Source: Trebouxia sp. TZW2008 (taxonomy: Eukaryota > Chlorophyta > Trebouxiophyceae > Trebouxiales > Trebouxiaceae). Taken from it: a stretch of DNA of 64,000 nucleotides. The notes below the pieces were generated by a model. That model was not told where the DNA came from. It saw only the letters and a list, made by a program, of their open reading frames with translations, and did not search any database. A program made the translations under genes and the position numbers. This document shows, in pieces, positions 1 to 58,142 of this stretch (position 1 is its first letter; each line of letters opens with the position of its first letter). Where the stretch lies: NCBI GenBank assembly GCA_002118135.1, contig BDIU01000063.1:186439-250438 (forward strand), in the 5' to 3' direction.

Positions 1-5
1 TGTCT

Positions 6-369
6 CAGGTGGTACAGCACCCAGGACACTCCATTAATAACTTCCCTGAATAGCTGTACTTGAAACCTGCTTGCATGCAGCATAGTTGTCCATACACTTT
101 TGACCTGTGTACTTGTGTGTGGTGTTCATTGCCCCAGACTTTGTTTGTATGCCATCCTCCAGCACCAAGGGAATTTCGTCCTCAAATAATGAGGGTTGCT
201 TTGCCCCTGCTTGGGCTCATCGTTGTGAAACACACAATTGCAGTCACTATGCACAAGGTGGTGCAGCACCCAGGGGACTTCACCATCAGCTTCCCTGGTG
301 ATCTTTGCTTTGAAACTCGATGATGAAATCTCCTGGGTGTTGCATTACCTTCTGCACAGTGACTGCATT
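6..369. repeat. Direct and inverted copies of a JmjC exon
   Basis: The 54-nt exon at 244-297 has a degenerate direct copy at about 6-50 (starts ctcag|GTGGTACAGCACCC and runs into a stop). It also has an inverted copy at about 369-316 that reads, on the minus strand, QHPGDFIIEF. The arms 241-293 and 369-317 are roughly 80 percent identical by eye and could pair into a hairpin enclosing the donor site. Confidence 0.7.
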
Positions 370-3325
370 TGTATCTTCTGCAACACTATTGGCTCGGTGT
401 TCACAATGATGAGCACAAACATCTTTTCTGCCTGGTGAGCTTCGCTTGAAACCTGCTTGCAGTCGTATTGTTGTGACCATTTTCCTGAGCCCTGCTGATG
501 AACAATGTGCCTACCTGGCTTCGCATACGCTCCTTGCAATCAGCAACTGTGAGTCACTGCATGTCCAGCAAGCATCATCACCAAAACACCTATCACAGAC
601 AAGCTTTATGTGTGGTCAAGGCATGCTATGCCAATCATTTCATGCATAAGTATTTCTTGCGTTGACTTGAAACTGCTGTGGACATTGCACAGAAGGATGC
701 CTTGGTGCTCACATTTGCATGTCAGAATGCAACCTTTCTGGCTGCAATTCACCAATGTATTGTACTTTGACTATGTACTAGAAACAAACCTTTGTTCAAC
801 CTTGCAACTCTGCATCAATACCCTACAGGGTGGACATACCACTGAATGCACCTGAAAATCAAATGAGAGGGATTGTCTCCAAAGATCCTACCTCCAACCC
901 TCACCTAGTCAGTACACTATGATGCATCTTTTTGCCAGCTTGGCCTGGAACTTTTTCACATGTTTTGCAGCGGTGACATTCAGTTATTGCTGCAGGCGCA
1001 CACCTCTTATACGTCAACTTAGGAATCTGCACAATTGAACCTTGCATTGAAGCCTGAGGGGTCAGCACCTGCAGCAACAACAAATTTGGCCACCAAATGC
1101 TGGATCAAGCATGGTGGAATTGCTAAAAGTGCACCTGCACCCTGTATCAAGAGTCAGTTTTGCAATTTTGACAAACCCAACATTCTCTGTTACTGCTGCA
1201 GGTGCGTACCACTCCGGCTTCAATGTCGGATTCAACTGTGCAGAATCCACAAACTTTGCGACAAAGTCGTGGATCCAGCATGGGGCTGTTGCCAAGTACT
1301 GCACCTGCACGCCTGGTCAGGAGTCAGTTCGCTTAGACATGGGATTGTTTCTAAACGAGGCACCCAATGAGAAGGTTAGACAGCTCGTTAGGCGCAGAAT
1401 GCAGTCAGACAGAAAGGCACGTGATGAAAGCCTAGATGCCTTGAGTGAAGCAGAAGCTGGCAGTGGGTCGGGATCAGACGAAGGCTCCAGCAACCTTCAG
1501 CAGATCAAACGGTGCAGGACAAAAGGTCCTAGCGGCAAGCCACAGCATGCACAGCAGGCTCTGCAGGCTCAGCAGCTGTTTAGATCTGACAGTGGGGCTA
1601 GCCAGAAGGCGAAGAGGCTAATCAAGAAGGCAGTCAAGCCAGCTGGCAGCAGCAAAGCTGCAAAGGTCAATAACACTGGGAAGGGCAAGGATCAGGCAAC
1701 CAGACCAGCTGTGAATCAGCTGAAGAGGAAGAACGGTGCTGAGGCTCCAGCTGCAGCTGTCAAGAATTCAAAGCCTAGCTCAGCACAGAGGTCGCTTGAG
1801 CCTAGACAGGACAAGCAAACTCAGACTAACGCCAGCAGGACATTGCGGCATAAGCCCAAGGGCTCAGTCCAGGCAGCAGCACGTGCAGTGCCTGCTGCAC
1901 AGCAGGCACAGCAGGCACAGCAGGCTCAGCAGGCCCAGCAGGCACCTGAGCAAGATGTGAGCCTACAGCAGCCAGAAGCTGCCGAGCAGCTGGTGACATC
2001 ACTTGCTGCAGATGGCCCATCACATGAGGCTGCTGTTGAGGCCTCACAGCATGCAGGCAAGAGGGAGCAGCCTGACAGCACTACAAGGCGAGCCTTTCTT
2101 GGGAGGTTGAGGAAGAGGACTGCTGATGCAGTCAGTTGGATGACTGGCCGCAGCCAGCCTGGTCGGGATAACCAGCAGGGTGAGGGTCCACTGCTGCAAG
2201 AGTCTAGCGAGCAGGCTCAGCAGGCACAGCACGCTCAGCAGGCCCAGCAGGCTCAGCAGGCCAAGGAGGATGAGCAGGCACAGCAGCCGCAGCAGGCTCA
2301 GCATGCACAGCAGGAACAGCAGCCCTGGCACGCTGTGTATGTGCGGTCCTGTGTCCAGGATACCCAGCCTGGCCAGCGTGCGCAGCGTGCCCAGCAGGTC
2401 TGGCATGCCCTTCAAGCCCAGCATGCTCAGCAGGCTCAGCAGGCCCAGCAGGCCCAGCAGGCCCAGCAGGCCCAGCAGGCCCAGCAGCCTGCTCCGGAGG
2501 CTCAGTCTGCTCAGGATAGTGCTGATGACATCATTGACCTCACACAGGATGAGCCATCACAGCCCACACAGGCAGCTGAACAGGCTCTAGGTGGCAGGTC
2601 AAACAGTGTCGAGGGAGCGGCAGCGGCACAGCAGTCACAGGAGGCTGCTCAGACAGAGATGAGGAATGGCACAACACATGCTGCTGCATCAGAAGCAGCT
2701 GCAAGTCATGAGGGTGCCAGAGGGGATGTGTCAAATGGAGCACATGGCCTCAGCCAGGCTCAGCAGGCACAGCAGGCCCAGCAGGACCCCACAGCCAAGC
2801 CCAAGGGGGACAGCAAGGGTAAGGCCAAGGGGCAGGGCAAGAAGGAGGAAGAGAGTAAGCTTTTGACTCACTGACTCTCACTGTTTTCTGATCTATCTTG
2901 CTTGTGCTGCTATACTTTCCTGGCCAGCTGAGAGCGCATATCGGCAGCAGCTGTTGGAAAACAACTGCATCACCGTGTAGGCTGCCAGTAAGAGAAAAAT
3001 TCCAAAATCATTGGCACAGCAATCAGCGCATGTGGCCGCCTTCTACTGAGGACAATTTGCTTGTCCCCAATCATGACATGTTGCTACAGCCTTCTATTGA
3101 GGACAACTTCCTTGTGCCTCATCATGACTTGATGCTCTAGCTTTCTCCTAAGAACAACTTCCTTGTGCCAGATCATGAATTGATGCTGCTGTTGCAGGCA
3201 AGAGAAAGCCATTGCGGCCGGCCTCAGCCCCTCTTAAGTTCACCAGCCGTAAGGCGCGCAGCGCATTCTCATGCTGCAGGGTGGCGAACTATATCGCCCC
3301 CAAATCCTTCCTTGAGCTCATGAAG
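244..3325 (+). CDS. KDM4-like JmjC histone demethylase, 3' part (gene starts before window)
   Basis: JmjC enzymes are nuclear Fe(II)/2-oxoglutarate histone lysine demethylases. Exons read here: 244-297, 1202-2854 and 3198-3325, with GT-AG introns in matching phase. Exon 1 ends in QHPGDFTISFPG and joins exon 2, which begins AYHSGFNVGFNCAESTNFA, the KDM4-type strand carrying the third metal-ligand His; a TKSWIQHGAVAKYCTC segment follows. The other two iron ligands lie outside the window. From about 1400 the protein becomes low-complexity with long runs of QAQQ repeats, Lys-rich patches and one IIDLTQDEP motif (near 2535) that looks like a SUMO-interacting motif. Exon 3 is basic (SKRKPLRP, FTSRKARSAF). 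The 3' end after 3325 is not resolved; a short terminal exon near 3629 is possible. Partial exon copies surround the first two exons. The family call is firm, the substrate unknown. Confidence 0.8.
985..1160 (+). repeat. Partial upstream copy of the JmjC exon 1202-2854
   Basis: An acceptor-like ctgcag at 990-995 precedes a decayed copy of the first part of the exon. TTNLATKCWIKHGGIAK here mirrors STNFATKSWIQHGAVAK in the intact exon. The acceptors lie 206 bp apart. The copy has stops and indels and is probably spliced out. Confidence 0.7.
3037..3197 (+). repeat. Three tandem copies of an intron 3' end
   Basis: Units of about 50-60 bp containing cttctaytgaggacaa, cttgtgcc and atcatgac are repeated three times. 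The last copy leads directly into the acceptor of the 3198 exon. Only intron sequence is repeated here. Confidence 0.75.
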
Positions 3326-4670: not shown

Positions 4671-6335
<1,665 letters not shown>

Positions 6336-8863: not shown

Positions 8864-9462
8864 CAGATATGTGCCGCCATGATGCAGCAGCATAGCCATG
8901 TGCACCTGGTGCTCAGCTGATGGCATTGTGTGGCTTTGTGAAGTTAGGTTTCGAGACTTCTGCTTTGTTAGATTAGGCTTTGCAGTGCATGTTTTCGAAA
9001 ATACACTGGATCTGTCAGGATCCGATCCTGGTAGATGCTGATTATGCAAATACTCGAGCCGCTCCCTTTAGGCACTGTCAGCAAACCATCTCTCTGCTGG
9101 TCTTGCTTTCTTGCTGTGCTTCAAAACGACGCTTTGATGGCCCAAGTGTAAGCCTGCATGCTCTGAACCGGGGATATCACGGGATGATGCATGAAGCGGT
9201 TTCACGCAAAGATCTGTTGAGCACCAACCGATGTGCGCCATGCTAAAATAGACGCTCACAAATGTATTATCCTGTGACGCCGATAGCATGCATTGCATCT
9301 AGCAGTTTTGCATGCCATACCAGAATTACGCATTAAGCTGATTTACGGGCCTTCGAAAGAGGCTGGAGGCCTGCCGCTGCGGTTATGAGACGCCATCTAA
9401 GTCTGCGGCATGGCAGCAGCGCTGCAAGATACGCTGCTTGTTTGTGACAGTTGCATTGGCGT
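8864..9462. other. Intergenic, TBP 3' flank to GTPase promoter
   Basis: No gene seen. The right part (about 9340-9460) becomes CpG-richer, as expected near the start of the next gene. Confidence 0.4.
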
Positions 9463-10380: not shown

Positions 10381-11130
10381 TGTACGCGAATCTGTGAATG
10401 ACCATCAGATAGAGCTGATCCTGAAGCAATGATTGCATTGCAATCATATGCACAGCAGTGAACTCAGCTTTTAGCAAGCTTCAGCTCAGAGTTACAGCGC
10501 GTAAAGTTGACCACTCCTGTGCTATGATCACATGGTGCACATCGCAGTTGGTCCTGACTGTATGACGCTATGTAGAATTTTGTGGACCTTGACTTCTGCC
10601 AACCATCACCAAAACGAAAAGTGCAGCCACGTATTGTTGCTTACATCATACCTGACTGTGCTTTTGAGCAGTCGACAAGAGCAAGTCTTGGGGCAAAATT
10701 TAAACGGCTGCTGTTCTGAGCAGGTGGACACTCAGCCTGGCAAACACAAAGCATCCATCTTCAAGTTGTCTGCTTGATCAACGTTTATGATCAGACAACC
10801 AACTCAACAACTGAAGAAGCTGAGCACTACTAATGCTATGACTAGCTAGCTAGCTACGTCCTGCAGAAGACCACAATCTACGCTGGTCCTAAACGTTATT
10901 GCCACACACAAAAATCTGCATGCTAGGAGACAAGCATGCAGTCAATACCAGCTCACTTGCGCTAACAGGCGGTCCCTCACTCAATGCTGCAAGACTCCCA
11001 TGCTAAATTCAGGAAGGCTTGCACAGACGGTGTGCAGAATAGTGTACAAGGTACCCTGCCAGACCAAACTCGACTAGCTGCAGGCTACTTTGACTGATTC
11101 TTTTTGACTGGACACTGCATAGGTTGGCAA
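10381..11130. other. Convergent intergenic region
   Basis: It separates the 3' ends of the GTPase gene (+) and the BtuF-like region (-). It contains a short (CTAG)n-like run near 10845-10855. No coding sequence was recognised. Confidence 0.4.
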
Positions 11131-14100
11131 TCAATGGAAGGGCTTGAAATGTTGATAGATCATTTGGGGCCGACACCGCTGCCCGTTTTGCAATGAAAAC
11201 TTCAGGGCTGTGTTTGCTGGCACCAATTTGGTGACAAGATTGCGATGGAAAATCCGAGCAAGAAGCTCAATGCCATTCACAAGCCTGCAGCAGCATGCGA
11301 TTTCTGTCAGGTCACCATTCATTGAGCATTATTGACAATTCTTTCAACATTTGACAAAGTCAACACCCGCTTGTGTCAGAGCATGCAACATTGATCCTGA
11401 TTGCTTTTACATAGCTTGGCCCTGATCGGCTTTGCCCCAAGATTCAGGCCTGGCCCTTCCTGACAGCTGAGCATGCCAGTGCAATACGCCCATTGTCATA
11501 TCAAGAGAAACATGAAGTCGCATTTCTGTGCAGAAATGTGTGACTTTGTTTCCGGTGATGAGTGTGTACCTTGGCCCTGGTCGGCTAAAGAGGCTATGTT
11601 CCAGGATGTAAACCTGGCCTGTCCTGACAGCAGGCAATGCCCACCAGCCAGGCTGTGCTGCCAGGTTGCACACCTCACCCAGGCTGCGCTCTAGACTAGC
11701 AGAGCAGGGGCACAGCAGCAGCACCTCTGGGGCATACTGCCGAATGGCCTCCCATGTGATGCGCTGAGGGGCATCGCCGGGATGCTGCCACTCGTCTCGG
11801 CCACCTGCTAGCTCCTTCATGTCAGGCAGCCACTGCCCACCTGCACAAGTTGAGAAGTCAATCCAGGAATCAATCAATGAATCAACCAGTCAGTCATGCA
11901 ACAGTTCATCAGGCTGATGGACCTTCTGTTTCAGCCATGGCCCGCATGCAAGAAGCAGACGCTCTGTGGGCTTGACCCAGCATTGAGTACCGTGATCACG
12001 AAATGTGCACCTGGTAGGGATACACAACAGGAATTGTGCTTTCACAACGCGCAAACAGATGGACATGCTGCCTTGAACATGTACCCGTATCGCTGATCAT
12101 GCAAGTCACAAGCTGGGACTAGTCATGCTGACGATGCCCTGCCCTGAGCTGCCAATGGTGTGCGGTGAAATGTCTCACGTCAGAGCAAGCATTAGTGCCT
12201 ACAGCATTGCCACTGCTAGATGCGTACCTAGGACCAGGGGCTGTAGCCCCTCCAAAGACAGGACCTTGGGGCGTTTGGCTCCGGCCACCTGCCTACCAAC
12301 AGCCCTCAATCGGTTCTGCAGGCTCTCAAGCAGCTGCAGCGCCTCTGCCTCAACCTTTGCTACCACTCCCACCTGATACCAAACAGTCACATTCATGCAT
12401 TCGTTCATTCGTTCGTTCGTTCGTTCATTCATTCATTCATTCATTCATTCAACACAAATGCTAAGCAGGCTCTGTAGCAGCTGCAGTGCTGCCGCCTCAA
12501 TGTTCCGACCTGAATCGTGGTCAATGATGTTCATGATTAGAATAAGCACAGACGCTGACACTGAACAGATGCGGCAGTGAGTAGCCAACAGATGCAATAA
12601 TCATTGAAGCATTTTCTTCGGCCAACAGCTTCTGTATTGCAGGTTCTCTATCGGCTGCAGCAACTCTGTGTCAACCTTTGCTGCCAAACCCACCTAGATT
12701 ATGGACCATGCTCATTAGGGCTTACAGTTGAGGGACAATGGACAGTGACACTCAGCACTTTTGACAATGAAAACTCAGCAGATGCAACAATGGACACGTG
12801 GCAGATGCAACAATTATTGACAGCATCCTTTGAATGGAGAGCTTTCTGGATTACAGCATGATCCAATGTAAGCACACCCTGATTCTCTGAGATTCTATCA
12901 AGAGAAACAACAGTTGCAATACAGGGATTGCTAAAACCTCATATGTCTTGTGCATACATTCATGCCAATGCTGCTGACGCTGACAATGACAGAAAAGAGT
13001 GTCGTACCCGCAGTATGTCTTGCAAGGCATCTGCAACAGTCCTGGGTGAGAGCACAAGCGGCTCTGTGTCTAGCCGCATCTCATGAATGACCTGCAGCAA
13101 TATAACAGCTAAGTCAGAACTGTGCAGCATGCTTTTGTCAGGGAATGATTACAATGCAGTCATGAAGCAAAGCTTTGGAGCAGCGGCAGTCAACATTTTA
13201 TACTAGGTGCTCTGTCTTAGCCTAACATCAGCTTTGCAGCCCCAACATGCAGCAGCATTGCAGCTTCCAGCCTGCTGATGCCAGTACATGATGTCACAGT
13301 TGTATGGGTGCAAGGCAAGTGCTAGCAGGGCAGGACAGGCACCTGACGGGACTGCGCTGTGCAACAGGGCAATGCACATGTTTGACTCAACAGGGCTGCA
13401 GACCCTATCACAGGCTAAGGCAAGACAATTCACAATGTCACAGCGCTTTCACCAGTGTATGTCATGTTACAATGTAGCAGGGCGCTTTGGTAAATAAGGC
13501 AATTGTGTACATCAGAAGGCTTGGCAGGCTTGATGGGTCGAGGTACAACAGGGCAGAACAAGGACAGGGCACAATGGCAAAGAGCAAGACCACTGGAGGC
13601 AACCAGGGCAGATCAGGGCAGGGTACAATAAGCATAATCAGGGCCAGTCAGGTTTCAGCAGGGCAGGGCACCTGAGCCAGCAGGCTGCTGTGGACAGCAA
13701 AGGCTTGCGACATGTGCAGCGTGAGCAGCAAAAGGAGTCAAGGTGCGATAGGGAGAAGGAGGTACTATCACCTGAGCAACTTGGCTGCTATGGACATCAC
13801 AAGCTCGGCAGGCGTGCTGGGTGAGCAGCAGGGCAGGGGGATGCTGCTGCAACCACTCCCTATCCAGGGTGAAGGGCGACTGCTTAGCTGCTTTCAGCTC
13901 CTGCATACGAGCCTCCACCTGCACCATATGGGCATGCGTGAGACCATAAGAGCATGCGTAAGCAAATCACGAGCCAGTATTCCAGCTGTATGGTGCTTGA
14001 GCAAACTATGCATGGAACTCTCACAGCTATACACAGCTTCTGCCTGCTGAATTTTCAATCCCTGTCTTCAGCTCCGGCGTGGGTGTCCCCACCTGCCCTC

Positions 14101-15100
14101 TGATGCTGCAAATGATGCATGCAATGTGAACCCTGCAGCTATCCTCGTCTCCGCTTGCTGACTCTTGAACTTAAAGTATAGCAGATGCCAGCGTCACCAT
14201 GACTTAGTGCCATGTCAACATGAAGCTGAGCTCTACTGGTTGCATGTTGATGCCTTGACAGCTGTTCTGTTCCAACCAGAAGTCTCAGTACACAGTCTAG
14301 ATGCCACAATGCTGAGCGCCTCATGCAGCTCTGGCCTCAAGATGTAAAGACTGATTGACTTTCTGCCTGCATGGTTCTGCTGATGGCATCCCCTGCACAG
14401 CTTTTGGTGTAGTGCTACTGTTACTGACAAACAGAATAGAACATAGCAAGCAGGGCGCAAGTTTAGAGACACAGCAGAGACCAAAAGCCAGCGAAAGGCA
14501 GCATGACAGTTGAAAATGCATTACGGTGCATAAGAAGGTAAAGACAGCAGGCGCTCACCTGTGCTGATGACATGTTGGCTGAGTCAAGGCAACTGCGGGA
14601 GACCTTGGGCTTAGTGGCAGCCTCTGGCGGGTAGTCACACAAGTCACTCACACCACTCACCCTGCACACACAACACATACTCCTTTGAGGACTGCAAATG
14701 CTGCACACAGCTGCCGGCTGTCCACACAGGACGGATGTAACTTTGCGGCGCGCTGCTGCTGACAAAAACACTTTTCATGTGTTGTCAAAATTGATTAGTT
14801 GATTTGACACCTGTGCCTGCGAGGTGAGTCCCATGCTGCCAAAAGAGCTGGGCCATTGTGGACTGCAGTTCAGAATGTTGCTGCAGCGCTGGCGGTGAGA
14901 CCAAGCAAGGCCCAACACAAAAGCTCCTTTTGACTCACAGCTGTGTGGGTCAAAGCGCATGCTGTGCAGTCCTGTCTGTCAAGCTCTTTAGTTTCAACTG
15001 CATTTTGGCTGCATCAGAGGTCTGACCTGTGTCCCAGGCCCAAGGCAAATAGGATCTCAGTGCCGCTGGGTAGCAGGCTCACAATGCTGTTGTCACTCAT
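11131..15100 (-). CDS. BtuF-type corrinoid-binding protein, possibly the C-terminal module of a CobB fusion
   Basis: Bacterial BtuF-like proteins (COG0614, helical-backbone metal-receptor fold) bind cobalamin for uptake. Exons (5'-3'): about 15100-15027, 14661-14559, 13918-13772, 13091-13008, 12372-12228, 11840-11570, 11284-11131. All phases agree, giving 325 aa from the Met at 15100. Motifs in order: SIVSLLPSGTEILFALGLGH; GVSDLCDYPPEAATKPKVSR; DREWLQQHPPALLLTQHACR; PLVLSPRTVADALQDILR; PKVLSLEGLQPL; GGQWLPDMKELAGGRDEWQH; and RPGPRLVNGIELLARIFHRN. These follow a bacterial cobalamin-binding protein end to end. No signal peptide is seen. The reading frame stays open upstream of the Met, so it may be fused to the CobB gene 0.6 kb upstream on the same strand; no CpG-rich promoter separates them. 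Several exons carry partial tandem copies. Confidence 0.8.
11400..11470 (-). repeat. Short downstream copy of a BtuF exon 3' end
   Basis: The 11400-11440 stretch (ttggccctgatcggctt) matches the end of the 11840-11570 exon (ttggccctggtcggcta). It is one more partial exon copy placed downstream of its source. Confidence 0.5.
12391..12450. repeat. TTCA/TTCG tetranucleotide microsatellite
   Basis: About thirteen units of attc/gttc run from 12391 to 12450. The tract lies in the intron about 20 bp upstream of the acceptor of the 12372-12228 exon (minus strand). Confidence 0.95.
12455..12700 (-). repeat. Two partial upstream copies of a BtuF exon
   Basis: On the minus strand, about 12695-12630 reads VGLAAKVDTELLQPIENLQ and about 12515-12460 reads IEAAALQLLQSLL. 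Both match VGVVAKVEAEALQLLESLQ at the start of the intact 12372 exon. Confidence 0.75.
13540..13680 (+). repeat. GGGCAG-rich imperfect repeat
   Basis: Irregular repeats of agggcagr/gggcacaa fill this intron segment (13540-13680). The pattern is too variable for a single unit length. Confidence 0.5.
13673..13735 (-). repeat. Downstream copy of the 3' end of a BtuF exon
   Basis: Minus-strand translation LLLTLHMSQAFAVHSSLLAQ followed by a GT donor mirrors LLLTQHACRACDVHSSQVAQ at the end of the 13918-13772 exon. This copy keeps the 3' half and the donor and lies downstream of its source. Confidence 0.75.
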
Positions 15101-15289
15101 GGAGGGACCGGCAGGCGCCAAAGCAGCAGCAGAAGCATGGGACCAGGCTGCATGCTGCTCATGCGCTGCTGCTCCCATCCTGCGGGTGAGCAGACAGTGG
15201 TCAGCACAACAATGGCTACAAAGTGAAGAAAGAGAAGCTGTTCATGAGACCCTGCTCCCAAGCTGCAGGCAAGCAGACTGTGGTTGACT

Positions 15290-15430
15290 ACAGACTGACA
15301 ATGCTGTCATCACTCATGGTGAGACCAGCAGGCGCCAGGGCAGCAGCAGAAGCATGGGACCAGGCTGCATGCTGTGCATGAGCCCCTGCTCCCAATCTGC
15401 GGAGGAGCAGGCAATGGTCAGTGGATGTTT
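15290..15430 (-). repeat. Upstream copy of the first BtuF exon
   Basis: About 130 bp matches 15073-15205. The copy keeps the acceptor-like catgcag, the CCTGGTCCCATGCTTCTGC block and an ATG that opens MSDDSIVSL before a stop; the intact exon reads MSDNSIVSL and continues. The two ATGs are 217 bp apart. Confidence 0.85.
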
Positions 15431-15456
15431 GTCACCATGATAATGTAAATGCTGTT

Positions 15457-15720
15457 GAGTGAGGTTCTGCAACCCTGCTAGGTGCCTAGAGAAACAATGC
15501 ACTGCCTCCCAACAGATCAGCTCAAGTCTGACAGTGAGCTGCAAAAGCTTCTGCTGAACTGTCGGGGTTTACAGATGCCGGACTGATCTAAGGATTCATT
15601 GAGCATCTGAGTTGTGTAGTCAGACAAATGCACTTCATGATCAGCCTTTGCATGCTTTCTAGTGAGGTTCTGTGACTCAGCTAGGTGCATACAGAAGCTA
15701 TGAACTGCCTCCTTATCCCT
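15457..15720 (-). repeat. Direct repeat pair, about 204 bp apart
   Basis: 15463-15510 and 15667-15715 share gttctg, gctaggtgc and actgcctcc blocks. Minus-strand translations are EAVHCFSRHLAGLQNLTQQH and EAVHSFCMHLAESQNLTRKH. One of them may be an unplaced exon between the CobB linker and the BtuF domain. Confidence 0.6.
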
Positions 15721-18700
15721 TTGGAACAACGCACCTGCCAGATGAAGAAGCAGTGCAGGTGTCATCGTTACGGTACGACACCCCGTCAGGATGCATCAGG
15801 CTGCTCATCCTGTCAGCCACACTCAATCTCCCGCTGCCCAGCATGCCACTATGGGCTGACTGTACAGTTGCGAAGGCTGACCCCATGCTGTTGGGTCTAT
15901 ACACCACACCTTCTGGAAGCATCCCGCTGTTCACTGAAAGCATACCGCTCTGCCCTGGTAGCATCTCACTGTGTGCACGTAGCATTGCATCAGCTGGGAG
16001 TAGGGTCCCATTGGGCTGAAGCACGCCGTTGAGCACAAGCACTTCGCTGCTGTTGCTGCCGTCTAGGGGGGGTGGGTAGGTGGGGGAGGATGACCCCTGC
16101 GAGGGTGAGTGGAAGGGCGTGTGCTGCATTGAATGATGGTGGTGATGCAGCTGCTGACTAATCTGTTGATGGAGCTGGGGGTGGTGAGGGTAGCCAGGGG
16201 GCTGCTGAGGGGCCCCTCCCCACTGGGCAGGGGCTGTATGTGCAGGGCCGTTTGGTACAGCCTCCATGCTGCTGTGCTCGGCTACATCATGTAAAGGGGA
16301 AGCTGGCATCGAGTAGGGCTTGACTGATGGCTTGTGAAAGATGGGTAGGCTAGATGTGCGCTGAGGTGAAATGGATTGGTAATCTGCTGGGTTGTACGTC
16401 TGTGCATAGACGTCCAGAGACACAATGCGTCCATCTGAGTCATACCGCACCTTCCTGGGCACCTGCTGCTGCTGCTGCACCTGCATCACGTCAGTCATGC
16501 TTCTCAAAATAGACTGCGCGTCCTGGCACAGGTGTGCGCAGCCCGAGTTGTGTTTTGCTAGGCCAGCGTGTTTTGAGCATCAACTCATTGCTCATGCCAC
16601 CAGGCCATGGCTGGCAACGTCTGTTCATGGACATAAGCAGCCTCAAGACCATCGTCATGCAACTAGGAGCTATGTGTGAGACCAGACAAGTGCAAAGGTG
16701 CTAATGCTGCACCTGCTGATGCAAGTGAGAAGGCTGTTGCTGGGAGTGCCCTCTCCCCCAAGGCGTTTCCACTTCCTCTCCTGAACGGCGGCTGAAATGA
16801 CTTGCCTGTTGATAGCCTGACTGCTGAAACGGCATGGCAAAGTCAGGCACAGACATCATCTTAGGCATGTTCCCTTGATGCACCCCATTCTGCATGTGCA
16901 CATCATGTCTCTCACCTGATGCGCTTACAGTTACTTCTCAAAATATGGACACTGGATCTAAAGGCATTCTCAACAAAAGGACAATGCAATCGGGAACCAA
17001 TCACTGCATTCTGACTGCAGTCCTCTGCGTAAGCGTTCAACTCGGTACAAGAAGGAGTTGTTGGGAACCAGAGCAGTTGTTACAAAAAGCAGTTGCTGTT
17101 CAAAGCATGAGAGACCCTGCCTGAGCTTTGTGACAGATGCAGCTGTACTCACAGTAAGCAGCAAACAACAATACACAACGCAAAGGATGTGTTACGAGCA
17201 AAGTCAACCTGCATGTGCGCGTGTGCGAGGCCGCCCATGTGGCCTCCATGAGTCATCGCCACCTGCTCTGCAGCTGCAGCAGCATGCTGCTCCTGGTGAC
17301 ACGCTCTCTGGGCAGCAGCATTGACAGCTTGCAGATCTACGCTGTGGCAGCGGGCCACTAAGGAGTAAGCTAGCTCAGGCGCACTGCCAAAGTGTAAGTG
17401 CACATAGCTGGCCAGCACATTCTTCCAGACAAAACCCTCAGGTACTGCCTCTGCTCCTGGTACCTACAAAGACACAACCAACATGGTGCGCTGCCAAAGT
17501 GTAGGTCAATGTAGCTGGCCAGCACATGCTTCCAGACAAAACCTTCAGGTACTGCCTCTGCTCCTGGCACCTACAAAACACAACCAACATTGGTGCGCTG
17601 CCAAAGTGTAGGTGAATGTAGCTGGCTGGCACATTTTTGCAGACAAAGCCCTCAGGTACTGCCTCTGCTCCTGACACCTACAAAGCAGAAGTCAGCGTTC
17701 AAAAGTGACATACGTAGAGCAAGCAAAAGGGCCATTCGCAGTCTCACAAGCAGCCAGCTTTCACGCTCCACATGTTGACGAGCATGCATGCAACAATGAT
17801 CACACAAGAGCAAGCTCTGACACAGGCAACCAGGGGTTGATTCTCACACTGGTGACACTGCAATGCATCTCAGTATGCATGACAGGGATCAGATTGCCAG
17901 ACTGCATGCACCCTTGGAAATTTGTGAAGAAGTCTGCACCCTCACAAAGATAAGCTTCGTGTCCTAGCCATTTGCACACATTACATAAAAGATGCACGGC
18001 AATTTAACTGCCATGGACAGAGAGTTTCAGTTCTAGTCACCTGCATGGTTGCTTGGTAGCCTGTCTCCCATTCCAGGTCTTTGGTTCTACCGTTAGAGAA
18101 GCCGCCCACGACCTTCTCTTGTAGAATTTCACTAAAGTGGTACACATGACCCCGAGCCTTGCAGTTTGCAGGAAACAGATTGCAGCCCTGCTGCGTTTCC
18201 ACCTCAATGTACCCCATCTTCATCTTGTCCTTGGTCATTTGTGTGCGGAATGGAAACAAGCCAGCTGCACACAACATGCCATCACTCTGCTAGTCATAGT
18301 AGTGATGATAGACATAGAGGTGGCAGGGGCAACAGCACGTATGCTTTGTGCTGTCTTCGCAAATCTTGAATCATGTCTAACCAGAGCTCATGTGATGGTC
18401 CTGATGCATGCTATACAGACTGACAGCATGTCGGGCTCAGGCCAAACACTCAACGCTAAGCAAAGATTACAGCAGCACTGCAAACAAAAGACTGAATGTA
18501 CCAGCAACTTGGCCATCTGTATCCCTGGTCATCATTCATGATAGCTGCAGTCTAGACAGACAAAGCTGATGCGTTGATTCAGTATCAATGAACATTGCGT
18601 CTAGCTGCAATTGTGGCATCTGCCTCGACTGTGACTTGATGATGTCAAAAGTGGATCTGACTTGTTTTGACAGCCCAGGATATCAAGCATGCATTTCTGC

Positions 18701-38563: not shown

Positions 38564-38725
38564 AACGTCAGCAGAAAAGCACCTGTCTGTTGAAGCCGGG
38601 TTTACTGCGCATGGCCAGCATAATTGTAGCTGAGCTTTGATTGGTCTGAGTCGTCATTTCGCGGCTTGATCGCCTGATCAAAGAGTTTGATCGCGACCAC
38701 TAGCGAAATCTAGATATAGGCAGTG

Positions 38726-43264: not shown

Positions 43265-43279
43265 TGAGTGAGACGTGCG

Positions 43280-49100: not shown

Positions 49101-52100
49101 TTCTTGTCAAGCTGCACTGCGACACAAACAATGATAATGAAAACAAAAGTTTGTAGCATGTACTGCCAAGTTTATGTGGCATAAGTCCTGTGTCGTCAAG
49201 CTGCACAGCAACGGCATCATCAGATTATGGCGGGCACTGTGGACAGCAGCATCCTGGCATGCATTTCTGAGTGCATCAGCCGCGTACTTGACAAAGTGGC
49301 AAAGGTGCATTGCAGACATGCTGCAAGATTGCTGCCACACTTAGCAGCTCTGCTCAAGTGCACAGGCATGTGGAGCATGGCAGTGCTTTGGACTTTTCTG
49401 CATATAAGAGTGCGCATTGTGTTGTTGCCCTGCACTTGTCCTTGTGTACCCATCCCGTACAGTAAGAAAAAGCATCTAGCGTACGCTAGCAACATATGCA
49501 TGCCTGCTTGATTCCGGCCCATGCTTTGTGCATGTACTACAGGTCTCATCTGCAGAGGCTTCTGCTGACAGACAACGCCATGAAGGAGCCAGACTCACAT
49601 CATGCATACCTGTCAAATTCAGGCCCAAACTTTGTGCACATACTCCAGGTCGCATCTGCAGAAGCTTCTGCTGACAGACAACGCTATGAAAGAGCCAGAC
49701 TCACATCATGCCAGGCTACTCACACTCTTTCTCAGAAGACTGTCCAAGGAAGCATCCCTGCTACTGCACAAAGGCAAAGAACTCAATCTCAACAAGAAGG
49801 GCATCACACGGCACATCAATGGGCAAATCTGTGAAGGCTGTCCTGACTGCAACGGTCCTGACTGGCACCACAAGTCTGCCAGTGTGGCGATGCTTTGGGC
49901 CCTGTGCTGTAAGTCACCTTGCTTGCACGTGCGCTTGCTTTCAGTGCCCTTGCTTACTCAGCATGTCGTCACCAGGACGATCTGTGAAGGCTGTTGTCCT
50001 GATTGCAATGGTCCCAGCTGGCACCACAAGTCTGCCAGTGTGGCTATGCTTTGGGCGCTGTGCTGCAAGTAAACTTGCTTTCACATGCCCTTGCTTTCAG
50101 TGCCCTTGCTTACTGAACATGTTGTCACCGGGACAATCTGTGAAGGCGGTTGTCCTGATTGCAATGGCCCAACTTGGCGCTACAAGTCTGCAAGTGTGGC
50201 TATGCTTTGGGCCCTCTGCTGCGAGTGTCCTTGCTTACAAGGGCCCTTGCTTTCAAGCGCCCTTGTCTGCATTGTGTCATACAAGCCTGACAATGTGATG
50301 TGCCTCTGACTTGGCATAGACGCCTTCTTCCTTCCTTCCTGCAATCATGATCACGATGTTCACAAATGCCCTCTGGTTGCACTACCGTGAAAAGCTTTGC
50401 CAAGTTGCTGCCTGTAAGCTGCTGTCGTGTGTCGCTGCCATTATGTCTGCCGATGTTGGATGCTGATTGTTGAGCATGAGCACAACAGCTAAGTTTTTGT
50501 TTGGAGCATCACATTATGACTGCCAGGTGCTGCATGACACAAAAGCATTGGACTCATTACACTATGCATAACAAAACGCTGCAGCTGACATGCAAGTAAA
50601 GCAACCCCTTTCGCAAGCGTGCATCTTGCATGCAGGTCACTGCTGCACCAGACCAGAAGCCCATCACATTGCAGCAGTGGCAGTGGACGCAGTATACAGT
50701 CCGCTTACACAAGACGAGCACTGCAAGCACATTTTGCTGTAAACGCACAAGATGACAAACGTAGACACCCAGGCAGATGACACACCTGGGATTGGGGAAA
50801 CCATCCGGGGGCTGGGGGTTGACCTGACCCCCCTTGGGGATGGCTTGACCCTCCAGCTGACCCTAGCAGCCCGTCTTGCTAGGTTCTGCACCCAGGTCTG
50901 AACCCCATGACATCCTTATGCTGTTGTTTCCACCTACTTAGCAACAGTGTATGGCCCTGCTGACACCTTTATGCTGTCTTTTTTGCTTGCATAGCATATG
51001 GGTTTCACCCTGCTCGCTGTCATCGTTGCCATCTCTTTCACCTGCTCAACGCAGAAATGATCAACCACATACGCGCAAATGTACTATATTATTGCTGTAA
51101 GACTAGGATCTGCCACGATGATCCTGCAATTTGGTGCACTCAGCTTGCCCAATTCCTTCCCATTGTTGTCGCAGCCGTCATGTATAGCACTTTGCGCTAT
51201 GAAGCGGCAATATCATTCATGCTGCTTCTAAGTACATTGCCCAACATTTGTTCTGAATAAGACTTTTGAGGTCCCATTGCGTGCATGTTGTGCAGGAATT
51301 GAAGCGTGCAGGCAGGGGAGCAGGTGCCACCACTCCATGGTTCAGCAAAGCTGTGCAAGACAAGACCTTTGACATTGTCTACGCCAGGCTGCACTCCGCC
51401 AGCAATGTCTCAGCGTCATCCTTCTGAGCACTTCATTCCCATTTGCATTGTCTTTGCTGGACCAAGTAAACGGGTCTCTTGTGGTTCTAGAATCAGGGTC
51501 ACAGGGTCTGCGCTGCATCTTTATCGTCCTGCACAAACGCTGCTCAGCAAGTGGACTGTCACAAACAAGCTGTCGCAACATGCATTTGGGTTCTTCATTG
51601 ATGGCAAAGTTGCATATGTAGCAGAGCCTTGGCAGCTGGGGAATGTCCCTGTGACACACACACTGGCAGCCAACATCTACTGCCCTTTCTGAGACGCTCT
51701 GCCCTGCGCTTATTGCATTGCTTCCTTTGTTTCAGGTTGAATGCATGTCGCTTCACCGAGGGCATTGCGCCACAATCATTCTGGTGGGCTCTTTGTCCCA
51801 TAGTCACCCATGCTCTTTGCAGCAGTTGGTCTCAAGATCAACAAAATCTATCCTGTGCAGGCAGACGCACCCTGGAGCACAGGCAGATGTACTGCAGTGG
51901 CCCACAGCCCTGCAGCTTCTCTTTGGGGAGTTATCAAAGTTGTGCTGTGCATGCAGACACACCCTGAAGCACAGGCAGATGTGGCGTAGTGGCTAGAGCC
52001 CTGCAGCTTTTGTTTGGTGAGTTGACAAAATTGTGCTGTGAAGGCAGACACACCCAGGAGCACAGACAGGTGTGTCGCAGCGGCTAGCGCCCTGCAGCCC

Positions 52101-55100
52101 TTGGTGAATTGACAAACTTATTGTGAGCAGGCACACAGCCTGGAGCACAGACAAGTGCCTCGCAGTGGCCAGGGCCCTGCAGCTTCTCTTTCATGAGTTG
52201 ACGAGATTGTGCTGTGCAAAAGATCACACCCTGGAGCACAGAAAGATGTATTGCAGTGGCTAGAGCCCTGTACAGCTTGGCACAGCTGCAAGCAACGCAG
52301 GCTTCAGACTCTGCTTTCCAGCAGGTGACACTTGCTTTAAACATGCCTTGGCTTGACCGATTTTGTATTGATCTTGTTGCAATGTCTGCTTGATGATGGT
52401 CAGGACGTCCAGTGATGCATGTAGACGGCATCAAGATGCTGACTTGCAATCATGTTGTATCTGAGCATGCCTGAGTGCTGACACAAATTGCCACAAGCAG
52501 CTGAAGCCATCAGGACAATGCGGGTATAGATCAATTGACCAGCAGCAAGGACCTCAAGTCAATGCAGCAGTTGCAGCATCGCTTGCTGCACACTGCAAAC
52601 TTGAGCTGCACATCGCCATGTGACGCATGTCTTGCATGTTGTATCAAGCCATGCACATTTCTGTTGCAGCTGACCATAGCTTGCTGCTGCCTCTGGCAGT
52701 CACCTTTGTCCGTCTCTCGCTTCTGATTGCTGCAGTTCAATGAGAATGTCACTGCACATCAGCAGCTGCAGTATTGACTGCTGTGCACTGTAAGCATTGC
52801 CATGTGACGGAGCTCTTGCATGATGCCATGCACATTTCTGTTGCAGCTGCTCATAGCTTGCCTCTGGCAGTCACCTTTCCCATCTCTCACTTCTGCAAAC
52901 AGGTTTGCTTATGTCTGCACAGTTCCAGGAGCAGCAGGCAGATCAGCTGGTGAAGAATCTCATTCCAAAAGTGGCCACAGCTCACCAGGATGCGGCTACA
53001 AGATACATTCTGATGGGTGCAATGGTGCACATTCTCAAGGCTACTGGTGCCTACACAAACACCTTACCCATCAAGGATCAGCCAAAGAAGAAGGTAAGCA
53101 TTGCAGGCTGCAATTACAGCAGCGCTCTGTTCCTCTTCTGCCTTTGTGCTTGTGCTAGTAGGCTTGCTGATCTTTTGTATCCGTCTGGTCGGCAGCCAAT
53201 CTGTGTTGACTGTCATCAAATGCCAACATGGGACCAAGCAGTTGCGTCAGAACAAATGAGTCTAGTGCATTGTCATGCATATGTTCTTGATATGTGGACA
53301 GTTGATGCCAGAATTGCAAAAAGTGACCCTGAGCCTGTTTAATCTGCTGGTCAGCCCATCTTCTATTTTTTTGGGCAGCAACTGACATGCAAAAGCTGAT
53401 GCCATGCTTGCAGGAGCTTGTCTTGAGCCTTATTGATCTGCTGGTGGGCCCTGCCCTTCTCCCTCATGGTCAGCAAGCCACATCAGATCACAACCCAACT
53501 GGGCTCTCGGGCTCCCCCAACAACACGGCCCTCAAAGTGGCCCCTGGGGGGTTGCACACTGGAGTCCCCCAACTGATCATTGGGGGAGACCACACTGAGC
53601 TGCCTCAACTGACCCCTGGAGGGGAACACACGGGCATCTTGGGCTTGATTGCATCAACCTTGGAGTGGATTGCTTCATGCTTGGACCAGGACGCTGATAT
53701 CTGCAGTCACTTCTGGCATCATGCCATCCCACTGATCCCACAGTGGTTCCAGATGAGTGCAACTCATATGCCTCATGAAACAGCTTCCGAGGAGAGCTTT
53801 GCATCTATCTGCGGTGAGGGGTTGCTCATGTCGACTTGTCTCCCTGAATTGCCAAGCATGCAAGCAATTGTGGCATTGACACATCTGTATCACTTCATGT
53901 ATGCATATGTACGCATGGCTCATTGACAAGTTGCACGCCTGCGCTCACTGCAACTGAGCTATCGTTATCAGCCTCAGTCTTGACTCACACATATCAAATG
54001 GAAAAGCTGTGCTAGCTGTAGTTCAAAATACTGCTCATACATACTTTATATTGCATATTGAACAAAATAAACGGTGTTTTGCTGAAGAAACACAATTTGC
54101 TGCAGTGGCATATTCAAAGTGGCACCCAAAGGCCATGCCTACAGTTCCAGCCCCCAAGGCGGCAGCTCTAGCAATGCAAACATCTATCTGGAGCCTAACA
54201 CAAGATCTGCTGCGTCAAGCGGAGCTGGGGATCAGATCACGGATTGCCATGTACAACAGCGAGGAAAGCGACAAGTCTGCTGCTTCAACTTCACAGTCTG
54301 AAGCGCGCATGGCTGAAATCAGGAATGCACTGGGTGAGCTTTTTACACTGCTGATCAGCACTGCTTTGCTGTCTCTGGGTTTGCATTGCATATGCAACAT
54401 CAGGATTTGGTCAAGTTTCAAGGTTGAGGTTGGGTTATTTGCTGCCTTGATTGTTGCCCATGTTGCTAAAAGGCACAGTCATGAGTGTGTAGTGGTGTGA
54501 AGGAAGTGTCGGTTGGTAGTAAGTTCAGTGGGGACTTGTGCATTCATTGCTGCTATACAGGTTCTGACTCCTTGCTCTGTTGTCCTTGTGGCAATCTGAC
54601 TGGAGCATGGCATGATGCATCTGCTTCTCACAGTCTACTTGGGCAGCACGAGCTGCAGCGCAGAGCAATTCAAAATGGGTTTAGGTTGTCAAATTAAGAA
54701 TTTGCAGGAGAAAACTCAAAATCGTGACTAAAACTGCTGTTCTGCAGACTTTCTTGGCAATCAATGGCGCCTCATGCAGCAAGACGCCACTTGAGAGTCA
54801 AAGTTTCATGACTCATTACACCATTCTGCACAACTTGTGAGCGGCAGTTGCAGCAAGACGCTATGTGGATGTCAAACGTGAACACTTTTTTACAACATTT
54901 TGCAGACTTCCTTGACGTCAGATGCAGCAAGATCTCATGTGGAAGTCCTGACAGTAAAGCGCTATACGCAAGTCAAAAGCCAATAACTTATGACATCGTC
55001 TTGCAGACTTTCATGGCAATCAGTGGCGCCTCATGCAGCAAGACGCTGTTTGGAAGTCAAAGATCCATGACTCATTACACCATTTAGAAGAAGTTCTCAG

Positions 55101-58100
55101 CAACAATTGCAGCAAGACGCTATGTGGTTGTCAAAAGTGACTTACCATTATGCCGTTTTGCAGGAGGGTCTGACAAGCAGTGACGCCACATGCAGAAAGA
55201 TGTCATGTGGGAGCCTGTCCTGACAGTCAGACGCTATGCGCAAGTGAGAAGTCTTTGACTTGTTACACTGTTTTGCAGACTTTCTTGGCAATAAGTGGCG
55301 CGACATGCAGCAAGCCGTCATGTGCAAGCCTGTCCTGACAGTGAGACGCTATGCGCATGTCGAAAGTCACTCACTTTGCTAGACTTTTCTGCAGACCTTC
55401 TTGGCGATAAGTAGCACCTCATGCAGCAAGATGTCATTTGCAAGTCTGTCCTGACAGTAAGACGCTATGCAAAAGTCGACAAATGTTACCTATTTACACT
55501 ATTTTGCAGACTTTCTTGGCAATAAGTGGCGCCACACGCAGCAAGCTGTCATGTGCAAGCCTGTCCTGACAGTAAGACGCTATGCGCATGTTGAAAGTCA
55601 CTAACTTTGCTAGACTTTTCTGCAGACTTTCTTGGCAATGAAGTGGCAGCTCATGCAGCAAGACCCCATGTGGAAGCCTGTCCTGACAGAACTGCTGAAG
55701 CAGTCAGAGAGCCCAGCAGACTTTCAGCAGATCAGACAATTTGCAAGCGCGCTTGCACCCTCACAAAAGCAGAAGAAGGATGCTGCAGCAATTCTGACTG
55801 CCAGCTTGCTTGACAAGCTTGAGGCTTGCTTTGTCATGACGGTAAGCAACTCACAGCAACATCTAATTCTCCATGCTTCAATACTAAGACTCACTTTGCG
55901 TTGCAACACAGCGCTCATGACATTTCAATTGCAGCTTGAAGCATCAACATGTATCAGCGTCCCAAGACATAAACAGTGAGGCCAAAGCTGGCATGTATGC
56001 AGCGTCTTTCCTGCCGCACCAATGTCCTACAACCCTTGCAGCTTTGTTGTGTGGCAGGACAAGACATTGCCTGCAACGCTGCCTTGGCATGCATATACCC
56101 TTGTACCCAACACTGCGCCAATGCAGCACACTCAACATGTACTTGCAGACATCAATTGCAGTTCACCCTGCAGGCTTTGAATAAAGTGCATCTGCAGGTC
56201 AACTGCAAGACTTGTCTTTCATGTCTGCGGTAGTGATCAGTACGCCCATCTCATATGGTCATGTTTGTCTGTGAGCATCTGCATGAGTGATTAGTAAGTG
56301 AGCTCCAAAAGGCAGGTCAGGGTTGTATGCCCTGCCAAGAACACAAACAAGACATTGGCTTACCACAATTATAGCTTTTGTCTGGGATGACTCTCTCTGT
56401 GCCAGGGCTCAAGGGCAGCATATACTTGTCTGCAATTGTTTCTGCATATGCTACAGCTTCTTCAGGCTGGCTTCACACGCAAGGGACCCTTCTGTCATTG
56501 CAAAAGTCTTTGGCATGCACGTGTTCAGGATGTTCAGGATGACAGCCAGTCTGACAGAGCTGCCCAGTCAGCCGCTGAGCTCATTCAGCAAGAGGGCCAA
56601 GAACTTGAAGCAGAAGCTGCCAGGGCAGCTGCCAAGAAGGCCAAGAAGCTGAAGCAGAAGGCCAAGAAGCAGCAGGCACAGCAGTCACCTGACCCACATG
56701 CCTCCCAAGCTAACAACAACAACAGCCTTGAAGACAGTAGCAATGGTGGTGACGCTAGTGGTGATGATGGCAGTGGTGGCGATGGAATTGGTGGTGGTGA
56801 TGGTGGTAGTGGCGGCGGCAAGTCTGCAATGAAGCATCCGTCCTTACCTCCGCAGACACCACCTCAGACAGCATGTCAGAGGCGCAACAGAGGCGTAGAC
56901 AGCCCCGATGGCACTGTGCCTCAAAATGTCAAGCAGCAGGGAGCTCCCAAAGCAAATGTGCCAGCCGCTTCAGAGGACACTGCAGCTGCTGTCATCAATG
57001 CAAGTGAGGCTGAGGGCTCTTCTGGCAGCATCAACATGAGTGGAGACAAGGGTCTGGAGGGGCTGCAAGGTGCAGCGGCAGTTGCAAGTGGTGATGAGGG
57101 TAATGGGGGCCAGGCAACAGCCCTGGATGCTGCTGCAGCCCCAGAGGCGGACAGTAACTTTCTGCAGTCCCTGTTCTCATGCCCCATCACCAAGGTCAGA
57201 AAACAGTAACTTTGCCATGCCTCATGACACACAGTGCGGATGCAACACTTATGCATAGCCTTGCTTGTACTTGCCTGTTTGCCTCTGGAGAATGGCTGTG
57301 TAAATATGCAGCAATTTTGGCTTGTTCAACCACTGGATGCTTGTGCATGCTACAAGAAACAAAAGGCATGCCAACCCGCTGTAATCCCTGCATGACAAAG
57401 TCCATGGCTGAGTCTCTGATGTGCTGACAGCCACTGCACTGTGGTTGCAGGCAGCAATGAAGGAGCCAGTGATTGCTGCTGATGGGTACACCTATGAGAG
57501 GGCTGCCATTGATGGCTGGCTGCATGATTACTTAGTGCTTGATGCATGCAGAAGTTGTTTTTGTTGCATGCCAAGGTTGACAATGCAGAGCTTATACTGA
57601 ATGCAATTGCACTGTGGCTGCATGCAGCAGTGAAGGAGTCAGTGATTGCTGCTGATGGGTACACCTATGAGAAGGCTGCCCTTGAGGACTGGCCGCATGA
57701 TCACTAGTGCTTGATGCATGCAGAAGTCTGTTCTGTGGCATGCCAAGCCTGACAAAGTGTCTGCCATGCTGAGTGCAATAACACGGTGGCTGCAGGCAGC
57801 AATAAAGGAGCCAGTGATTGCTGCTGATGGATACACCTATGAGCGGGCTGCCACTGAGGGCTGGCTGCATGATCACTCAGTGCTTGATGCATGCAGAAGT
57901 CATTTCTGTTGCATGCCAAGGTTGACAATGAAAAGGTTTTGTTGAATGCAACTGCCATGTGGCTGCAGGCAGCAATGAGGAAGCCAGTGATTGCTGCTGA
58001 TGGGTATACTTATGAGAGATTTGCCATTGAGGACTGGCTTCAGAACAGCTCTGTGTCACCTGTCACTGGAGACTTTTTGACTCACATGCGCATTGTGCCA

Positions 58101-58142
58101 AATGTCCTAGTCAAGAACCTCATCAATGATACTCAGCAGTAA
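46187..58142 (+). CDS. Large multi-exon protein with C-terminal U-box (E3 ubiquitin ligase)
   Basis: The U-box recruits E2 enzymes for ubiquitin transfer. Terminal exons are clear: about 56436-57194 (coiled, Lys/Gln-rich KKAKKLKQKAKKQQAQQ, Gly/Ser linker, then NFLQSLFSCPITK) joins in phase to 57969-58142 (PVIAADGYTYERFAIEDWLQ, SPVTGDFLTHMRIVPN, end NLINDTQQ). Likely upstream exons: 46690-47339, about 47465-47720, about 47805-48050, 48691-49073, about 49222-49305, about 49651-49910, about 50752-50896, about 51298-51430, about 52907-53094, about 53390-53810, about 54115-54330, 55622-55840. They are Leu-rich and unrecognised. The start at 46187 (MDVVLTSQ) is in CpG-rich sequence; no later CpG-rich start is seen, favouring one gene, but this is inference. 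A frame break occurs near 48.8 kb. Five or more exons carry partial copies. Confidence 0.55.
47371..47425 (+). repeat. Downstream copy of an exon 3' end
   Basis: tcttctgagctattcacaaactttgt repeats tcttctgagctgttcccacactttgt at the end of the 46690-47339 exon, 83 bp away. It includes the GGAGTCAG end but not a GT donor. Confidence 0.75.
48060..48420 (+). repeat. Downstream copies of an exon 3' end
   Basis: ctgcaaccttgcatgtttggcgggct... at about 48087 mirrors cttcaaccttgcatacctagctggct at 47990 and again ends near gccagtgagtccctgcaac (exon: gctagtaagtcccttcaac). Weaker echoes continue to 48420. Confidence 0.6.
49507..49720 (+). repeat. 106-bp tandem duplication at an exon start
   Basis: LLLTDNAMKEPDSHHA is encoded twice, at about 49558-49605 and 49664-49711. 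The first copy breaks off; the second continues RLLTLFLRRLSKEASLLLHK. Confidence 0.85.
49827..50230 (+). repeat. Three copies of an exon 3' part, period 153-156 bp
   Basis: ICEGCPDCNGPDWHHKSASV (49827) recurs at 49980 and 50136 with modest changes. Only the first copy ends at a canonical donor (TGCT|GTAAGT); the second has GCAAGT and the third cgagtg. One other frame stays open through all three units (about 49708-50298). Confidence 0.9.
51860..52300 (+). repeat. Five-unit array, period about 85-93 bp
   Basis: ggagcacaggcagatg... and ccctgcagcttctctt... blocks recur with ggagcac/gaagcac at 51873, 51966, 52057, 52142 and 52232. One frame of unit one reads HPGAQADVLQWPTALQLLFG. Later units acquire stops. 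It is probably an exon with decayed copies. Confidence 0.85.
54743..55621 (+). repeat. Seven decayed copies upstream of exon 55622
   Basis: gcagactttcttggcaat-like junctions occur at about 54743, 54902, 55013, 55160, 55275, 55391 and 55506, before the intact exon at 55622. The last intervals are 115, 116, 115 and 116 bp. Each unit keeps the acceptor, catgcagcaaga..tcatgtg.aagcctgtcctgaca and gacgctatg. Only the last reads FLAMKWQLMQQDPMWKPVLT and continues. Confidence 0.93.
55850..56400. other. Intron-like region without recognised exon
   Basis: Lies between the 55622 exon and the coiled-coil/U-box exon. No supported coding sequence. Confidence 0.35.
57451..57968 (+). repeat. Three tandem decoy copies of the terminal U-box exon
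   Basis: Copies at about 57451, 57624 and 57796 precede the intact exon at 57969, period 172-173 bp. All encode VIAADGYTYE with nearby variants (RAAIDGWLHD, KAALEDWPHD, RAATEGWLHD) but end at HDY/HD-H-type stops or novel tails and lack the SPVTGDFLTHMRIVPN half. Each has a gcag acceptor in phase with donor 57194. Confidence 0.95.

Follow-up and report, generated by a model that had tools for sequence, protein, structure and literature searches.

The stretch analyzed here, called the window, comprises 64,000 nucleotides of DNA of the lichen-type green alga Trebouxia sp. TZW2008 (contig C62, positions 186439-250438) from a 68.5-Mb, 527-contig genome in which telomere-type TTTAGGG repeats are present. 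Seven of its predicted proteins received Pfam labels (GST, TBP, CobB-like, U-box, JmjC, hydrolase, and glycosyltransferase), and a Ca2+-ATPase was identified through PMCA chains in the PDB. Trebouxia sp. A1-2 and C0004 have proteins that are 84% identical to this Ca2+-ATPase. Several genes of the window, including two large unnamed ones, bear partial copies of exon edges in the adjacent intron, and these copies are called echoes.

Exon-edge repeats in the window and elsewhere in the genome

The main sample of 254 kb consisted of the window and 19 full 10-kb stretches from 14 contigs outside it. Repeat orientation was compared in the window and in 191 kb from 15 contigs outside it; the latter included a 1.3-kb stretch (L022), which was left out of the 254 kb together with a 9-kb stretch (L029). 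Repeat families were collected by self-comparison as direct repeats 60-1000 bp apart with E <= 1e-5 per pair. Exon edges were predicted, rather than proven by RNA, with a purpose-written hidden-Markov gene finder that was self-trained on the sequence. The gene finder converged on the donor CAG/GTRAGY and the acceptor TGCAG/G, and in the 254 kb it predicted 447 exons with a median length of 127 nt and 365 introns with a median length of 277 nt.

The 254 kb contained 89 families of nearby direct repeats, of which 61 lay at exon edges, 8 were intronic, 7 exonic, 5 intergenic, and 8 of other kinds. The edge families were divided into 35 on the acceptor side and 26 on the donor side or at a gene end; among them, four "donor" edges were stop codons and one "acceptor" edge was a start-codon call. 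The window held 19 of the 89 families and 12 of the 61 edge families (11 acceptor-side and 1 donor-side). A first-pass annotation of the window had suggested a genome-wide process, and the 19 outside stretches indeed held 70 families, 49 of them at exon edges. Exon-edge repeat families thus extend beyond the window. Scaled to the genome, 61 families per 254 kb would extrapolate to about 16,000 edge families.

Under stricter settings, 15 direct-repeat clusters were found in the window against 1 inverted cluster, and the 191-kb sample gave 58 direct clusters against no inverted one; together with the E limit, this is more than chance would give. The best-scoring pairs of the 89 families were 69-96% identical. 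Searches of Pfam match coordinates, read by eye and giving a lower bound, found repeated E1-E2_ATPase ranges on contigs C318 and C87 and repeated protein kinase ranges on C73, C130, and C273; the same search with the DEAD profile gave just a weak overlap on contig C32.

The window loci are collected in Table 1. The first-pass annotation had put its count at fifteen or more exons, spread over at least seven genes. The edge copies are real, but 11-12 families in about six gene models were counted here, and the remaining window families were intronic, exonic, or in poorly modelled stretches. Among the genes that it had named, DHAR, CobB/BtuF, the Ca2+-ATPase, and the U-box gene were found again, while near the JmjC gene there was only the weaker non-edge pair at 1070-1329. 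It had also put the number of copies per exon at one to seven; arrays of 3 to about 5 copies were reported by Tandem Repeats Finder, and seven copies were not confirmed.

Table 1. Repeat loci of the window, with the predicted exons and echoes at each.
Feature	Position	Strand	Exon, echo, and remarks
GST/DHAR-like gene	5082..5263	-	exon 5032-5160, acceptor-side echo 5168-5263, spacing 86, 79% identity; Pfam GST_C_2
CobB/Peripla_BP_2 gene model	12317..12695	-	exon 12228-12372, acceptor-side echo 12638-12695; match ends 2 nt beyond exon edge
CobB/Peripla_BP_2 gene model	15074..15421	-	exon 15027-15179, acceptor-side echo 15291-15421, 85% identity, gapless over 131 nt; flanks alike, p 0.008
CobB/Peripla_BP_2 gene model	17378..17690	-	exon 17209-17463, two acceptor-side echoes, period 107
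CobB-like exon 19551-19810	19669..20248	-	two acceptor-side echoes, period about 208, 89% identity; intron part also alike
Ca2+-ATPase	26065..26361	+	acceptor-side echo 26065-26192 upstream of exon 26242-26451
Ca2+-ATPase	28091..28322	+	acceptor-side echo 28091-28194 upstream of exon 28221-28547; match starts TGCAG
Large unnamed gene	33692..34069	-	donor-side echo 33692-33876 of exon 33942-34167
Large unnamed gene	34097..34363	-	acceptor-side echo 34289-34363 of exon 33942-34167
Array	51841..52278	+	about five copies, period about 92, ends at predicted exon 52257-52324
Array	54737..55689	+	period about 115, higher-order spacings; upstream of predicted exon 55638-55841
U-box gene	57411..58042	+	three acceptor-side echoes upstream of last exon 57969-58142, period 173; Pfam U-box
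Weak pair near JmjC gene	1070..1329	+	75% identity; no exon-edge copy by the gene model used
Two repeat families	49492..50265	+	periods 105 and about 153; gene model poor here

Exon 33942-34167 has echoes on both sides, one donor-side and one acceptor-side. The start of predicted exon 55638-55841 is a start-codon call, and its acceptor is uncertain.

Tandem duplication and the exon-edge bias

The first-pass annotation had explained the echoes by tandem duplications with one breakpoint inside an exon. The geometry of such a duplication by itself leads 5' copies to retain the acceptor and 3' copies to retain the donor, with one exon left intact, and this arrangement was seen in the pairs viewed, as had been claimed. 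Furthermore, the intron flanks of the two copies should be alike, and this was compared by a gapped test against unrelated flanks. Placement succeeded for 60 of the 61 edge pairs, which formed the starting set for the splice-dinucleotide, junction, flank, extension, position, acceptor-score, and donor-content tests. The five pairs with stop-codon ends or a start-codon call were removed from the intron-extension, position, acceptor-score, donor-content, and flank tests, and they were kept in the family counts and in the codon-position, splice-dinucleotide, match/spacing, junction, and patchiness tests. Pairs with a spacer below 25 nt or a short flank were also dropped from the flank test, so that 50 pairs were tested, 40 of them with an exon identity of at least 0.80.

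A tandem duplication that crosses a splice site and is skipped by splicing fits at least 23 of these 40 testable pairs, in which the intron flanks were alike at p<0.05. In the other 17, flank similarity was undetectable. Simulated tandem units, run at three divergences and two indel rates (the higher being three times the measured rate), retained flank similarity in 111-120 of 120 units per setting (92-100%), so that the 17 pairs represent a real shortfall. The earlier explanation is thus partly supported.

The placement of the families differed from random placement as well. In a simulation with measured rates, 1,840 of 3,000 randomly placed duplications were detected; 502 of them crossed one boundary, 331 others contained a boundary, and 401 were intronic. 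The observed ratio of edge to intronic families was 61:8, compared to 502:401 in the simulation, or 833:401 when every boundary-containing class was counted; the classes differ slightly, because the observed one requires the exon to continue past the match and leaves 8 families unplaced, yet both simulated ratios are far from the observed one. Among edge pairs of at least 80% identity, the match covered less than half of the spacing in 20 of 37, compared to 9%, 2%, and 0% of simulated pairs at 80-85%, 85-90%, and above 90% identity, although part of this excess comes from indels that cut BLAST matches.

In edge pairs of this identity range, the intron part of the match did not exceed 30 nt in 25 of 35 cases, compared to 26% of 606 simulated pairs, with medians of 14 and 69 nt. 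In the class of short matches, ungapped intron-side similarity was 0.82 in the first 6 nt, and it had dropped almost to the level seen between unrelated splice sites after about 16-20 nt (acceptor) or about 26 nt (donor). Two single clear cases lie on one outside stretch (L009): an 87% match at 4875 that begins with TGCAG (flank p 0.16) and a 93% match at 8637 (flank p 0.12). Echoes of the 35 short-match pairs were placed nearer to the source edge than a uniform distribution would give, with a mean relative position of 0.27. The exon-edge bias is the unexplained part of the pattern.

These results point to a frequent local DNA-copying process in which exon-edge pieces are repeatedly copied into neighbouring introns, and which helps introns grow. 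The best explanation, in which we place moderate confidence, is that local duplications of exon edges enter the adjacent intron, are tolerated, decay, and sometimes become arrays. A short local duplication would take in the exon edge and its splice site, with 23-126 nt of exon in the short-match class, and the copy would enter the adjacent intron near its source, in the same orientation. The copy would be tolerated because splicing still uses the one contiguous exon, and as a dead pseudo-exon it would then decay. In some pairs, slippage or unequal exchange may afterwards raise the number of copies to between 3 and about 5, giving arrays. At least 23 of the 40 testable pairs are tandem units that also hold intron sequence, and the other 17 look confined to the exon edge and to a short piece of intron, usually between a few and about 30 nt. 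The data themselves show the copies, how widely they are spread, their orientation and edge preference, whether the flanks are alike, and the neutral decay. We infer that the process starts with local repair synthesis, either staggered-break fill-in or template switching, and that exchange builds the arrays.

Several points weigh against this explanation. The match covered at least 0.9 of the spacing in 24 of the 61 edge pairs and less in 37, and flanks were alike (p<0.05) in 11 of the 27 short-match pairs that reached an exon identity of 0.80. The length test may thus overstate the size of a separate exon-edge class. In an array at 1541-2225 of stretch L025, the copy at 2225 kept a short match to the real flank in the gapped comparison. 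Exchange with the exon could also make old tandem units resemble fresh edge copies. The exon edges are predictions of the purpose-written gene finder, and the simulations assume equal mutation rates and the gene models of this analysis.

Plain tandem duplication with a survival filter is a possible alternative, which we regard as less probable than local edge copying. It states that units of 60-350 bp arise anywhere, that exonic ones are purged while intronic and splice-site-crossing ones survive, and that all pairs are of one kind, those with an exon part being recognisable for longer because the real exon is constrained. The 24 pairs whose match covers at least 0.9 of the spacing agree with it, and so do the flanks, which were alike at p<0.05 in 14 of the 15 long-match pairs tested and in 14 of the 35 short-match ones. 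The acceptor and donor geometry follows automatically. At four sites (L012 9698, L014 6389, L019 7210, and L021 4416), the copy runs over a stop codon instead of a splice site, and three of these four are long-match tandem units, which speaks for this alternative. However, it leaves the 17 pairs without flank similarity, the 61:8 ratio, and the excess of matches below half of the spacing to be explained. Furthermore, none of the 8 intronic families was above 83% identity.

Tandem duplication followed by concerted evolution would account for the missing intronic pairs and for similarity that fades at the splice site, and it appears unlikely. Exchange or slippage would recopy the exon into the echo while the intron parts drift, so that echoes look younger and end near the splice site. 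The arrays show that exchange or slippage occurs, and many short-match pairs had intermediate flank scores (median p about 0.1). However, patchy identity was no stronger than in pairs simulated without exchange: it was found in 4 of 31 and 4 of 21 pairs at p<0.05, compared to 14 of 160 simulated ones, and the combined patchiness p values were 0.049 and 0.003 against 0.004 in the control. Young intronic pairs would still be required, and none of the 8 intronic families exceeded 85% identity.

A stronger form of local edge copying is more doubtful again: algae of the Trebouxia type might have a copying process templated on exon edges, in which a break or nick near a splice site leads to synthesis across the exon border and the product enters the neighbouring intron. 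If this were true, a large part of intron growth would come from copies of the exons on either side, and at the DNA level mutation would be concentrated at exon borders.

Exon-templated copying tied to transcription or splicing, for example synthesis at the ends of exon RNA-DNA hybrids that seeds the adjacent intron, would fit the preference for both kinds of splice site, the direct orientation, and the closeness to the source. We consider it quite improbable. Exon-exon junctions were not found in the copies, most donor copies contained GT and some intron bases, acceptor copies did not stop at the branch-point distance, and four edge pairs ended at stop codons, where no splicing takes place. 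The stop-codon copies thus argue against a purely splicing-linked cause.

Retrocopies of spliced mRNA were rejected as a source, since only 3 of 58 echo flanks resembled a neighbouring exon (p<0.05). The absence of exon-exon junctions indicates that the source was not spliced mRNA, and donor copies with GT and intron bases indicate that it was not a free 5' exon. Branch-point-limited reverse transcription was rejected as well: the acceptor-side extension had a median of 10 nt, and a CTGAC peak lies about 20-30 nt upstream.

A shared dispersed element was also discarded, as the tested spacers gave 9 dispersed matches, all from 2 spacers, and 35 inter-locus matches were present in the 254 kb. 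Separately, an intronic spacer at 9091-9419 of stretch L015 resembles sequence in L023, L025, L026, and L027 as well as in the window; of all sequences in the sample, it is the strongest candidate for a true interspersed repeat.

Decay of the echoes and protein comparisons

In the 61 alignments of exon and echo, the differences per site were 0.129, 0.105, and 0.227 at the first, second, and third codon position. Such a pattern results when the exon accumulates changes chiefly at third positions while its copy diverges freely, by about 0.115. The same alignments had 28 of 35 indels that were not a multiple of three and 13 stop codons that had arisen. The echoes look dead, with one constrained and one free copy in each pair.

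The AG was retained in 30 of 35 acceptor echoes, compared to roughly 27 expected from the measured divergence (about 0.78). The GT was retained in 17 of 25 donor echoes against the same expectation of about 0.78, or in 17 of 21 without the stop-codon ends, which made up four of the eight GT losses. Splice dinucleotides therefore survive at about the neutral rate, and clear excess conservation is absent. The sequence preceding the echo AG scored similarly to real acceptors and higher than intronic TGCAG sites, which is partly due to the shared ancestry of those bases.

The first-pass annotation had proposed an active process that feeds decoy or alternative exons. The frame-breaking indels, the stops, and the neutral loss of splice sites leave the supply of decoy exons unsupported, and the closest pair in the sample was 96% alike, which does not bear out the word active. 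Selection for functional decoy or alternative exons is very improbable, although the slight surplus of retained AG and the acceptor-like scores lean in its direction; the neutral codon-position pattern, the frame-breaking indels and stops, and the retention of GT in 17 of 25 speak against it. Short near-identical repeats are a recognised assembly hazard, and an assembly artefact is scarcely credible here, because the divergence of the best-scoring pairs is beyond sequencing error.

That splicing ignores the copies, as had been supposed, is plausible from the protein comparisons. The predicted echo exon 26073-26141 of the Ca2+-ATPase appeared as an insertion of about 23 residues relative to PMCA1 (6a69), and this repeat was absent from three Trebouxia homologues by eye, one of which (P0003) has an unrelated insertion there. 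Gene predictors can thus draw echoes into proteins, as with these extra residues. Similarly, two echo-bearing exons of an M16 peptidase gene on stretch L025 were single in the Trebouxia A1-2 protein P0121, also by eye.

Of 120 ATPase homologues, 7 were flagged by a diagonal scan for near-duplicate segments within a protein. The strongest was P0011 of Trebouxia sp. C0006, an annotated Ca2+-ATPase in which a segment of 36 residues recurs at a distance of 32 residues within a conserved membrane region, perhaps an echo mistaken for an exon; most of the others were of low complexity. The corresponding M16 scan flagged 4 of 120 homologues, among them proteins of two flowering plants with long repeats, while the Trebouxia M16 protein was not flagged. 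Protein annotations thus provide no more than a hint that the trait is shared by other Trebouxia.

Related systems and further features of the window

The closest known system is a tandem duplication across an intron-exon boundary of the potato RdRp gene, in which one event gave a new intron and added coding sequence (PMC4974935). As in Trebouxia, the duplication was direct and ran from the 3' part of an intron into the beginning of the exon that follows, and a small part of the upstream exonic copy was absorbed by the new intron (PMC4974935). Unlike in potato, the Trebouxia echo is apparently skipped whole, there are 61 edge families in 254 kb, and 17 of 40 testable pairs are without alike flanks. 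Boundary-crossing tandem duplication was thus already known from one potato gene.

Intron gain through tandem duplication of an AGGT-containing exon segment was reportedly described by Hellsten in 2011. Tandem duplications as intron sources have been reviewed (PMC3443670), and cases are available from Drosophila (PMC2891723). In both that work and the Trebouxia echoes, locally duplicated exon sequence becomes intron sequence. In the Trebouxia pairs viewed, however, the intron pre-exists and the echo lies within a longer intron, and AGGT-to-AGGT was not the pattern.

Small tandem duplications are also said to arise from staggered breaks in rice and in plant nick studies. A break-repair mechanism, the fill-in of staggered breaks, has been described for such duplications (PMC8355091), which resemble the echoes in being short, direct, and local. 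Its model leads us to infer abutting copies, with a match length equal to the spacing. In Trebouxia, 24 of the 61 edge pairs have this form, which does not describe the class as a whole; the other 37 match over less than 0.9 of the spacing, and exon edges are preferred.

Introners are the origin of much intron sequence in a eukaryote (PMC9860276), and the echoes would likewise be a source of much intron sequence. Unlike introners, one repeated sequence of which is present in many introns, the echo spacers share no element, their dispersed matches being limited to two spacers.

Tandem exon duplication with mutually exclusive splicing also places extra exon-like copies in introns. The Trebouxia echoes are similar in this respect, but they are partial, evolve neutrally, and do not keep the frame.

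In the literature on Trebouxia exons, introns, and tandem duplications and on partial exon duplication, in which subscription journals were thinly covered, nothing that matched the pattern was found among the papers listed. The origin of intron sequence and the lengthening of introns are poorly known. With 61 edge families against 447 predicted exons, it could be measured directly in this genome how such duplications are born, survive, and are tolerated by splicing.

The CobB/CobQ-type amidotransferase and the Peripla_BP_2 (BtuF-like) domain of the window lie in a single predicted model at 10846-20988 on the minus strand. A PDB search with the CobB-like protein gave no match, and the Peripla_BP_2 match was slightly under the Pfam cut-off. 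A real fusion, two adjacent genes, and a merger by the gene finder are the alternatives for this model. Downstream of the JmjC part, positions 1861-2514 hold a long in-frame alanine/glutamine-rich coding repeat with a 9-nt period, which is an ordinary protein repeat and no echo.

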